A stretch of DNA of 64,000 nt, from NCBI RefSeq assembly GCF_027497175.1, contig NZ_CP114901.1:6014001-6078000 (forward strand), given 5' to 3'. Position 1 is the first letter of the stretch. Each line of letters begins with the position of its first letter. The stretch is from Verrucosispora sp. WMMD573. Its GTDB lineage: Bacteria > Actinomycetota > Actinomycetes > Mycobacteriales > Micromonosporaceae. Shown one piece after another: positions 37,551 to 40,573 of the stretch. A program made the position numbers and the translations under genes. The notes under the pieces were generated by a model that was not told the DNA's origin, did not search any database, and was given only the letters and a program-made list of their open reading frames with translations.

Positions 37551-40376
37551 TTATTGGACGATGGAGACCATGCGGGTGGGGATGACGATGACCTTGCGGG
37601 GTTCCTTGCCGGCCAGCACGCCGGCCACGGCGTCCAGGGCCGCCTGGCGGACGACGTCCTCGGCGGCGTCGGCGGGGACCTCGACGCGGGCCCGGACCTT
37701 GCCGTTGACCTGCACCGGGTAGGTGACCGTCTCGGCGACCAGCAGGGCCGGGTCGGCGACCGGGAAGTCCGCGTACGTCAGCGAGGTGGAGTGGCCCAGC
37801 CGCTGCCACAGCTCCTCGGCGACGTGCGGGGCGAACGGCGCGACCATCAGCACCAGTGGCTCGGCCACCTCGCGCGGGGTACCCGACAGACGGGTCACCC
37901 CGTTGGTCAGCTCGATCAGCTTGGCGATCGCGGTGTTGAACCGGATCTGCTCCATGTCGCCCCGGACACCGTCGATGACCTTGTGCAGCAGCCGCCGGGT
38001 CTGCTCGTCGGCCGGGTCGTCGGTGACCCGGGACTCGCCGGTCCGCTCGTCGACGATGGCCCGCCAGACCCGTTGCAGGAACCGGTACGAGCCGACCACC
38101 GCCCGGGTCTCCCACGGGCGCGACACCTCCAGCGGTCCCATCGACATCTCGTACACCCGGAACGTGTCCGCGCCATAGGCGGCACACATCTCGTCCGGGG
38201 TTACCACGTTCTTCAGGGACTTGCCCATCTTGCCGTACTCGCGGTTGACCTGGACGTCACCCAGGAAGAAGCCGCCGTCGCGCTCGGCGACCTCCTCCGC
38301 CGGCACGTACGCGCCCCGGGCGTCGGTGTACGCGTACGCCTGGATGTAGCCCTGGTTGAACAGCTTGCGGAACGGCTCGAACGACGACACGTGGCCCAGG
38401 TCGTACAGCACCTTGTGCCAGAACCGGGCGTACAGCAGGTGCAGCACGGCGTGTTCGGCACCGCCCACGTACAGGTCGACCCCGCCGCAGTCACCCTCGC
38501 CACGCGGGCCCATCCAGTACCGCTCGTTGTCCGCGTCGACGAACCGGTCGCCGTTGGTCGGGTCCAGGTAGCGCAGCTCGTACCAGCAGGAGCCGGCCCA
38601 CTGCGGCATCACGTTGGTCTCCCGGGTGTAGCGCTTCGGGCCGTCGCCCAGGTCCAGCTCGACCTCGACCCAGTCCCGGCGGCGCGACAGCGGCGTCTCC
38701 GGGTCGCTGGCCGCGTCCTCCGGGTCGAAGGTGCGCGGGGAGAAGTCCTCCACCTCGGGCAGCTCGACCGGCAGCATCTCCTCCGGCAGGGCGATGGCGG
38801 CACCGTCGGCGTCGTACACGATCGGGAACGGCTCGCCCCAGTAGCGCTGCCGGCTGAACAGCCAGTCCCGCAGCCGGTAGGTCACCGCGCCCTGGCCGTT
38901 GCCGGTCTCCTCCAGCCAGCCGATGATCCGGGCCTTGGCATCGGCCACACCCAGGCCGTCCAGGTCCAGGCCGCGCTCGGGCGCGGCGCTGTTGATCGCC
39001 GGCCCCTCCCCCGTGTACGCCTTGCCGTCGAAGCCCTCCGGTGGCTGCACGGTACGCACGATCGGCAGCTCGAAGACCTCGGCGAACTCCCAGTCCCGCT
39101 CGTCCTGGGCGGGCACCGCCATGATCGCGCCGGTGCCGTAGCCGGCCAGCACGTAGTCGGCGATGAAGATCGGAATCTGCCCACCGGTGACCGGGTTGGT
39201 GGCGTACGCGCCGGTGAAGACGCCGGTCTTCTCCTTCGTCTCGGCCTGCCGCTCCACGTCGGTCTTGGCCGCCGCCGCCTTGCGGTACGCCTCGACGGCC
39301 TCCCGCGGGCTGCCGTGCCCACCGGTCCACGCGTCCCGGGTGTCCTCCGGCCAGGCCGCCGGCACCAGCGTGTCGACCAGCTCGTGCTCCGGGGCCAGCA
39401 CCATGTAGGTGGCGCCGAAGACGGTGTCGGGCCGGGTCGTGAACACCCGGATCGGGGCGACCGGGGTCGGGAAGTCGATGTGCGCGCCCTGCGACCGGCC
39501 GATCCAGTTGCGCTGCATCAGCTTGATCGGCTCGGGCCAGTCCAGCTTGTCCAGGTCGTCCAGCAGCCGGTCACCGTACGCGGTGATCCGCATCATCCAC
39601 TGCTTCAGGTTGCGCTTGAAGACCGGGAAGTTGCCCCGCTCGGAGCGGCCGTCGGCGGTGACCTCCTCGTTGGCCAGCACCGTGCCCAGCCCGGGGCACC
39701 AGTTCACCGGCGCCTGCGACACGTACGCCAGGCGGTGGTCGTCGATGACGGCGCGGCGCTCGGCGGCCGACAGCTCGGCCCACGGCCGGCCGTCCGGGGT
39801 GCGCCGCCCGCCCCCGGCGAACTCGGCGATCAGCTCACTGATCGGCCGGGCCCGGCCGGCCTCGTGGTCGTACCAGGAGTTGAAGATCTGCAGGAAGATC
39901 CACTGGGTCCAGCGGTAGAAGTCGGTGTCGATGGTGGCCACCGAACGCCGCCGGTCGTGGGCCAGCCCCAGCCGGCGCAGCTGCGCCCGGTAGCGGTCGA
40001 TGTTCGCCTCGGTGGTGGTCCGGGGGTGGGTGCCGGTCTGCACCGCGTACTGCTCGGCGGGCAGGCCGAACGCGTCGAAGCCCATCGCGTGCAGCACGTT
40101 GCGGCCGGCCATCCGCTGGTACCGGGCGAAGCAGTCGGTGCCGATGTAACCCAGCGGGTGTCCGACGTGCAGCCCGGCCCCGGACGGGTACGGGAACATG
40201 TCCAGCACGTACAGCTTCTCCGCACCGGACCGCGGGTGAGCCGGATCGGCCAGCGGACCGGACGGGTTCGGCGCGTGGAAGGCCCCCTCCCGCTCCCACC
40301 GGTCCTGCCAGCGGCGTTCGATCTCGTCGGCCAGCGCTGCGGTGTACCGGAACGGTGGGACGTCTGCCTCGGTCAT
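37551..40376 (-). CDS. leuS: Leucyl-tRNA synthetase
   Basis: A 941-residue class Ia synthetase charging tRNA-Leu. The HIGH-type motif is in [19 protein letters not shown] and the KMSKS-type motif is [11 protein letters not shown]. The editing domain is present ([21 protein letters not shown]). The anticodon-binding and C-terminal domains end at [11 protein letters not shown]. The frame opens at 40484; ATG 40376 has GGAGAAGG upstream. A 180-nt leader with a Leu-rich peptide and a terminator lies ahead. Confidence 0.97.
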
Positions 40377-40470
40377 GGCCTTCTCCTCGCGTCGCTCGGC
40401 GGAGTCTGTCGGAGTGCTGGCTGGTCTCGGGTCTGCCACGCCGGCCCGTCGCGGGCCGGCAGCGGGCACG

Positions 40471-40495
40471 AAAAAGCCCCTCACGCAGGAGGGGC
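40471..40495 (-). terminator. Intrinsic terminator (attenuator) in the leuS leader
   Basis: On the minus strand GCCCCTC (40489-40495), a 6-nt loop, GAGGGGC (40476-40482) and then five T (40471-40475). It is the only clear U-tract terminator I saw in the window, and it lies about 95 nt upstream of leuS, inside the leader rather than behind a gene. Confidence 0.85.
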
Positions 40496-40497
40496 CG

Positions 40498-40530
40498 CCG
40501 TGCTGTCACGCGTTCAGCGCATCAGCACGG
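40498..40530 (-). promoter_or_regulatory. Putative antiterminator stem of the leuS leader
   Basis: CCGTGCTG (40523-40530) pairs with CAGCACGG (40498-40505). The stem can be extended by pairing the preceding GGGC with GCCC across a small bulge, which would take up the 5' arm of the terminator. The 5' arm overlaps the leader-peptide stop codon, so a ribosome finishing the peptide would block it. Confidence 0.65.
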
Positions 40531-40560
40531 CCCGGTAAGAAGCAGGAAGACTCCGGCCAT
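40522..40560 (-). CDS. leuS leader peptide MAGVFLLLTGPC
   Basis: A 12-codon ORF, ATG at 40558-40560 and TGA at 40522-40524. It contains three consecutive Leu codons (CTG CTT CTT), two of them the rare CTT in this GC-rich genome. It has no ribosome binding site but starts 7 nt after a TACACT box, so it is probably translated from the very 5' end of the mRNA. Stalling at the Leu codons when Leu-tRNA is scarce would favour the antiterminator stem that follows. Confidence 0.8.
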   Translation of the reverse strand: MAGVFLLLTGPC

Positions 40561-40573
40561 GACCGGCAGTGTA
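40561..40573 (-). promoter_or_regulatory. leuS promoter -10 box (leaderless for the leader peptide)
   Basis: TACACT on the minus strand (40568-40573), 7 nt before the leader-peptide ATG. I do not see a good -35 hexamer. Confidence 0.6.

Follow-up and report, generated by a model that had tools for sequence, protein, structure and literature searches.

How expression of leucyl-tRNA synthetase could be adjusted to leucine supply is the question raised by the DNA preceding leuS in Verrucosispora sp. WMMD573, where a short open reading frame (ORF) with a run of leucine codons is followed by two adjacent hairpins. The window is the whole 64,000-nucleotide stretch of contig NZ_CP114901.1 that was analyzed (positions 6,014,001 to 6,078,000), and the elements of the locus are collected in Table 1. 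Comparison with relatives made it probable that the leader controls leuS by ribosome-mediated transcription attenuation and is the ortholog of the leuL2 leader of Streptomyces.

Table 1. Elements of the leuS leader region, in window coordinates
Element	Position	Strand	Basis
-10 box TACACT	40573-40568	-	sequence reading
Leader ORF MAGVFLLLTGPC, putatively leaderless	40522..40560	-	conserved in family; homologous to S. lividans LeuL2
Control codons CTG CTT CTT	40537..40545	-	conserved in relatives
Leader stop TGA	40524-40522	-	2 of its bases inside arm A
Arm A, 5' arm of upstream hairpin, contains most of stop codon	40523..40531	-	covariation
Arm B of upstream hairpin	40497..40505	-	covariation
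Intrinsic terminator and T run	40471..40496	-	RNA folding, family filter, covariation
leuS Shine-Dalgarno GAGGAG	40383..40388	-	sequence reading
leuS, leucine--tRNA ligase	37551..40376	-	TIGR00396, 887.7 bits (cut-off 548.4)

Reading of the minus strand bore out all of the elements and coordinates listed in an earlier note on this DNA. The leader ATG starts at 40560, with 7 nt between it and the TACACT box. The upstream hairpin (A:B) is an 8-bp stem of CCGTGCTG (40530-40523) with CAGCACGG (40505-40498), to which 40531/40497 add a ninth pair, and the terminator consists of an 8-bp stem (40496-40489 with 40482-40475) and T5 at 40475-40471. The RNA fold of 40471-40531 had an energy of -40.0 kcal/mol (z -6.6), which none of 200 shuffled sequences equaled. 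A second strong hairpin, GCCGGCCCG-CGA-CGGGCCGGC, was seen by eye on the minus strand between the terminator and leuS (40440-40460), as was a T/G step (T|G) 9-10 nt past the G run of the terminator. In many relatives RTGCCC follows the T run, and in the window it lies at 40464-40469. No Rfam family, the T-box model included, reached its gathering score in the window, and ARAGORN found no tRNA there. The single-contig 6.5-Mb genome contains one full-length LeuS match, and the highest LeuS identities among the matches listed, measured over the best aligned stretch, were 96.7% (Verrucosispora sioxanthis) and 94.6% (Micromonospora sp. HNM0581). On contig G000:C1, the same 1086-aa PF00133 synthetase frame occurred near both contig ends (L004/L005 and L341/L342); the ends of this assembly probably overlap.

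LeuS was present in 118 of the 121 genomes of the family, and the upstream regions of 110 of these 118 were examined. An automatic filter, defined as an ORF with a Leu run of at least two plus a terminator, was passed by 107, and anchored reading found the element in 109, with the short Leu-run ORF directly 5' of leuS. Two of the three upstreams missed by the filter (L105 and L108) carry the element and the third (L086) does not; in L086, the sole family member without a Leu ORF, the terminator and a GTGCCC tail were still there. Alignment of these Micromonosporaceae regions showed conservation of the Leu run and of the paired stems (109/110), with compensatory changes. A covariance model, R1, was built from 67 family sequences and searched against 394 genomes of the class; at E <= 0.01 it matched 202 of them, spread over 85 of 137 genera. 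Family f2 contributed none of these matches, and at least 20 of its genomes were among the misses, which included 172 genomes beyond those listed. LeuS lay downstream in 39 of the 47 R1 loci examined outside the family, while two loci (L124 and L138) were at or near a contig edge and six preceded cimA (five) or ilvB (one). In the WMMD573 genome itself, the second R1 match was only at chance level (E 3.25), ruling out further copies of the leader.

Named genomes were also scanned independently with a sequence pattern, which returned at least 120 loci, with LeuS downstream on the same strand in 115 of the 120 listed; the pattern had CTTA fixed, and the scan is therefore silent on conservation of CTTA. 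The matches listed included five loci without LeuS downstream, two of which (L210 and L284) encode the peptide and three of which (L211, L257 and L267, from a cyanobacterium and two Oscillospiraceae bins) look like chance matches, and also two loci (L182 and L254) with LeuS downstream in which no leader peptide was called. The taxa among the matches listed included Micromonosporaceae, Streptomyces, Jiangella, Glycomyces, Saccharothrix and Amycolatopsis, and further Geodermatophilaceae, Ornithinimicrobium, Microlunatus and Arthrobacter. The conserved ORF, stems, terminator and linkage to leuS support, at the level of sequence, the earlier note's proposal of a leucine-codon attenuator of leuS.

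The earlier note had also proposed that ribosomes reach the leader ORF by loading at the 5' end of the mRNA, and the family alignment was consistent with such leaderless reading. A TAnnnT box preceded the start by 6 nt in 66, 7 nt in 40 and 10 nt in 3 of the 109 leaders (6 or 7 nt in 106/109), a spacing that is partly circular because the box helped to choose among in-frame starts. A Shine-Dalgarno-like motif was found within 15 nt before the leader start in 3 of 109, versus 89 of 109 for a slightly wider motif in the 30 nt before leuS. No conserved -35 element was found across the family leaders. Actinoplanes sp. SE50/110 belongs to the same family. In that strain, 1179 start sites, 14.03% of all CDS, were reported to represent leaderless transcripts (PMC7682106), and in S. 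lividans TK24 the homologous LeuL2 (MRAVRLLLSEPR), located before leuS, was reported to be transcribed leaderless (PMC8079986). Therefore, a leaderless sensor would be no surprise, and the earlier view of the leaderless sensing peptide as the unusual part of the locus had to be given up, such a peptide having already been published for Streptomyces leuS (PMC8079986). In family f2 (L381-L394), several of the leuS genes that lack the leader are perhaps leaderless themselves, with TATACCCT a few nucleotides before GTG.

The leader ORF was 8-13 codons long in 106 of the 109 relatives, and its last Leu codon ended 5 nt before arm A in 102. The stop lay 7 nt inside A (A+7) in 85 leaders, at A-2 in 22 and elsewhere in 2. 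Because the stop position varied while the RNA geometry stayed, the peptide end shared by the leaders (PC or PR) reflects conservation of RNA, not of peptide. The Leu codon ending 5 nt before A was CTT in 107 of 108 (one of the 109 leaders has none there), and the codon preceding it was CTC in 59, CTT in 45 and CTG in 4, CTA being excluded as second anchored Leu codon by the pattern of the anchored reading. When the whole ORF was considered, the last Leu codon was CTT in 102 of 109 and CTC in 7, as some leaders have one more Leu; five family leaders carried a further Leu codon (CTC) after the CTT. Among class relatives, CTT was followed by A in 35 of 41 parsed Leu leaders, the other six of the 47 being non-Leu-type and unparsed. 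An A after the last CTT (40536 in the window) was seen in 95 of 108 family leaders, though the next residue varies, and likewise in the Ile leaders described below.

A ribosome extends about 12 nt past the first base of its A-site codon. A stall at the first Leu codon would leave arm A free, at the second nearly free and at the third partly covered, and a ribosome at either stop would cover the arm fully. These stall and stop footprints fit the formation of A:B upon stalling.

Hairpin A:B consisted of 7-10 contiguous base pairs in 108 of 109 family sequences. Covariation was measured in 67 of the 109, chosen by keeping the 93 that were no longer than 128 nt and whose stem reached 6 bp or more, and then removing near-duplicates (the weak-stem sequence L089 was left out); 8 pairs had changed on both sides, with 28 cells against 11.0 in shuffles (sd 2.2), and none of 500 shuffles scored as high. 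In 46 distinct sequences from the class, 10 pairs and 66 cells were found against 9.9 in shuffles, and the observed values again exceeded all 500 shuffles except in one measure, with 1 of 500, although this alignment was fitted to the model and is thus biased towards it. Both hairpins, A:B and the terminator, carried compensatory changes. Arm B ended just before the terminator stem, the distance between the hairpins being 0-3 nt in 152 of 154 sequences when gaps of 0-8 nt were searched; L098 and L099, whose A:B this restricted search missed, were dropped from the initial 156. A hairpin of at least 7 bp was equally close in 9 of 44 other terminators versus 96 of 96 leader-like ones (a class chosen by motif), so such proximity is by itself not uncommon in GC-rich DNA. 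The same hairpin touching the terminator was found at loci encoding MRAVRLLLSEPR, which R1 matched at about 1e-19 per genome.

By comparison, the ORF was shown to start at the likely transcript start, and CTY-CTT to end 5 nt before the conserved A:B hairpin that touches the terminator. With this layout, a 70S ribosome would load on the AUG at the 5' end. With Leu-tRNA(GAG) charged, the ribosome would reach the stop in or just before A and mask A, and the terminator would end most transcripts. With that tRNA uncharged, the ribosome would halt on the Leu codons, leaving A free so that A:B forms, and read-through into leuS would rise. Because A:B does not overlap the terminator, it would act by touching it: a helix abutting the terminator base could make it harder for the last pairs to close at the RNA exit channel. 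A:B may additionally pause RNA polymerase. We infer the sensitivity to stalling, the antitermination step and the direction of control, the last because, for the system to make sense, a shortage should raise leuS. As no conserved antiterminator sharing an arm with the terminator was found, the switching step is a proposal.

Pause hairpins are present in the his and trp leaders, and T|G at a fixed offset from the hairpin is the geometry of the consensus pause. A:B might likewise be mainly a pause hairpin that holds RNA polymerase for the leaderless ribosome, in which case the response would come through coupling with no antiterminator. A T|G step indeed lay at that offset, 10 nt past arm B, in 64% of the 154 sequences, and +1 was most often G (61%). 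However, the same bases form the terminator loop and may be kept for the stability of that hairpin, and the cimA relatives L150 and L152 were, by eye, without T|G at that offset. We regard a mainly pausing role as unlikely, though not negligible.

In a classical attenuator, A:B would reach into the terminator's 5' arm as a mutually exclusive antiterminator, as the earlier note had claimed for this locus. In the window alone, GGG before A could pair with the terminator CCC across a bulge (by eye), and the Streptomyces leuS element was described as classical, with antiterminator and terminator hairpins (PMC1262725). However, folding did not bear out mutual exclusion, as the minimum-energy fold of 40471-40531 holds both stems, nor did comparison support the extension: 88 of 109 sequences had no contiguous outward extension, 19 had 1 bp and 2 had 2 bp, the longest seen. 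GGG preceded the stem in 14 of 109 sequences. When the 3' half of the terminator was withheld as partner, the first three C of the terminator paired upstream in 3 of 109. When arms were masked in eight combinations, the only new consensus helix was one of 4 bp (-0.15 kcal/mol), seen with the terminator 5' arm and B both masked. Duplex searches for a conserved alternative partner of either terminator arm gave only scattered partners, the best recurring one pairing the terminator 3' arm with CTYCTTA of the Leu-codon region. We do not believe this pairing because, by eye, it is incomplete in the Streptomyces CTGCTTA leaders and in the cimA leaders, while the final TTA is kept there. The locus thus has the control-codon leader peptide and intrinsic terminator of trp/leu-type attenuators, but an antiterminator sharing a terminator arm was not conserved, and the classical arrangement is improbable here. 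The leader may work like an attenuator without being filed as a classical one.

CTC and CTT are read by tRNA-Leu(GAG) under standard decoding, and the WMMD573 genome has one tRNA-Leu gene for each of the anticodons GAG, CAG, TAG, CAA and TAA (all 52 tRNA matches were covered). In the window, leuS uses CTG for 67 of its 67 Leu codons, and the leuS genes of 30 relatives use CTG for 2019 of 2096, with 36 CTC and 4 CTT. Among the matches listed, CTG made up 1995 of 2086 Leu codons in Streptomyces (29 loci), 1802 of 1833 in Micromonosporaceae (28) and 1669 of 1827 in others (27), the count covering those 84 of the 120 listed loci with a LeuS match of at least 600 residues. The core CTY-CTT codons of the sensor and the CTG of leuS are opposite leucine codons. 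As leuS avoids CTC and CTT, it should still be translated during the inducing shortage.

This preference could also simply reflect the codon adaptation usual in highly expressed genes, and the Ala, Pro, Thr and Arg usage of leuS is indeed somewhat tighter than that of rpoB. However, the Leu shift between leuS and rpoB was by far the largest, and the control genes were not purged: CTG accounted for 520 of 993 Leu codons in rpoB (partial frames, 13 genomes), 30 of 52 and 29 of 49 in the two groEL genes of WMMD573, and 62/88, 48/75, 56/86 and 35/57 (61-70%) in its four other PF00133 synthetase genes, with CTC at about 19-42% in rpoB, groEL and these synthetases. Adaptation alone consequently has little to recommend it as an explanation. 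In 23 other window ORFs, putative genes chosen by base composition, CTG accounted for 620 of 973 and CTC for 242, and ORFs neighboring 78 leader-bearing loci averaged 62.5% CTG and 32.4% CTC plus CTT. Avoidance of CTC and CTT in all leucine-supply genes was ruled out, as leuA of WMMD573 has 34 CTG of 43 and its leuB-, cimA- and ilvD-like frames 53-69%; these were stop-to-stop frames, and NCBIfam named only leuA and the cimA-like frame (the latter on a 256-residue piece).

In 19 f2 genomes, whose leuS lacks the leader, CTG accounted for 1021 of 1501 Leu codons (G248, with a split match, was left out of the 20). The corresponding count was 199 of 216 in three genomes from the order of f2 in which the leader is present, a contrast that is confounded by phylogeny. 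The leuS genes of G151 and G226, also leader-lacking, were still 89% and 82% CTG, so the purge can occur in the absence of the leader. Little purge was seen at leader-bearing loci L188 (67% CTG), L253 (65%), L221 (74%) and the partial L198 (60%), and CTG reached at least 90% in 18 of the 27 loci from other taxa among the matches listed. Finally, that the Leu run and stems form a constitutive attenuator or small-RNA source without any leucine response is very improbable because the Leu codons, their spacing and the linkage to leuS are widely conserved and codon avoidance is far strongest for leucine, even though experiments cited in PMC1262725 saw no effect when candidate regulatory codons of the S. 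coelicolor ilvB leader were changed.

The same architecture was found before other genes. Five second R1 matches (L147, L149, L150, L152 and L153) carried Ile codons and preceded cimA, encoding citramalate synthase, which was identified by TIGR00977 at 609-620 bits in four and by a DTTLRDG motif in L150; all five ended in ATT followed by A. At the level of titles and abstracts, no published account of an Ile leader before cimA was found among the matches listed; the title of the one match on the topic concerns valine production in Methanothermobacter. At L151, a leader with the peptide MRQDLLVPQGRAD preceded ilvB (acetolactate synthase, 1102 bits), and ilvB leaders are known in actinobacteria (PMC1262725). 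The leader also preceded two types of LeuS (L145, L146, L148, L154, L158-L162 and L164), the second of which is only about 38-42% identical to the window LeuS and averaged 84% CTG over 10 loci. Genome G327 has both types, each with its own leader (L145 and L146); the leader has been either retained or reacquired upon replacement or duplication of leuS. Taken together, the leader would sense only tRNA-Leu(GAG), leuS would have been selectively emptied of the codons of that tRNA in most of the leader-bearing actinomycetes examined, the abutting hairpin and not an overlapping antiterminator would set read-through, and the architecture would have been redeployed with Ile codons before cimA. We offer this joint reading tentatively, as one that could nearly as readily hold as fail.

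Streptomyces leuS attenuators (PMC1262725) and the leaderless LeuL2 (PMC8079986) are already known; added here are the absence of an antiterminator overlapping the terminator, the division of Leu codons between sensor and leuS, and an Ile version upstream of cimA. For these three points, leuS codon avoidance included, no prior report was found among the matches listed in a search of titles and abstract openings that mainly covered journals other than subscription ones. The leuL2 leader of S. lividans TK24 was reported with likewise 12 codons, three of them Leu, a terminator and leuS downstream, and as leaderless, which is predicted for the leader in the window too (PMC8079986). It shares the RNA architecture of the window leader. 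The window peptide differs from LeuL2 outside the Leu run, and peptides identical to LeuL2 are encoded at some R1-matched loci; by sequence, the S. lividans leader and the window leader are the same element. The available text of the LeuL2 report analyzes neither covariation in an upstream hairpin nor leuS codon choice (PMC8079986). In 2005, leuS attenuators were predicted for S. coelicolor and S. avermitilis, also with a Leu leader ORF, a terminator and a second hairpin, and were called classical, with an antiterminator (PMC1262725); here, no conserved overlap between the hairpins was found. The leuA-specific LEU element described in the same survey is a pseudoknot in which the Leu run pairs with the gene's Shine-Dalgarno sequence (PMC1262725). 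The leaderless Cys short ORFs of mycobacteria, by title (Canestrari 2020), are leaderless amino-acid sensors too, but for cysteine, and the 2005 survey gives them no conserved terminator hairpin (PMC1262725).

R1 provides a covariance model for a widespread actinomycete leader for which no Rfam family reached its cut-off in the window, and the locus raises the question of whether a hairpin that merely touches a terminator can control termination. In theory, leader control codons are those most sensitive to supply in translation, and in the Salmonella leu leader CUA-to-CUG changes lowered sensitivity (PMC1183508). The leu leader of E. coli and Salmonella is likewise tuned to a sensitive Leu isoacceptor, but it uses CUA and precedes a biosynthetic operon (PMC1183508), whereas here CTY codons precede a synthetase gene that is itself nearly free of CTY. 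If true, the split of sensor and target-gene codons by isoacceptor would extend the theory of selective tRNA charging (PMC1183508).
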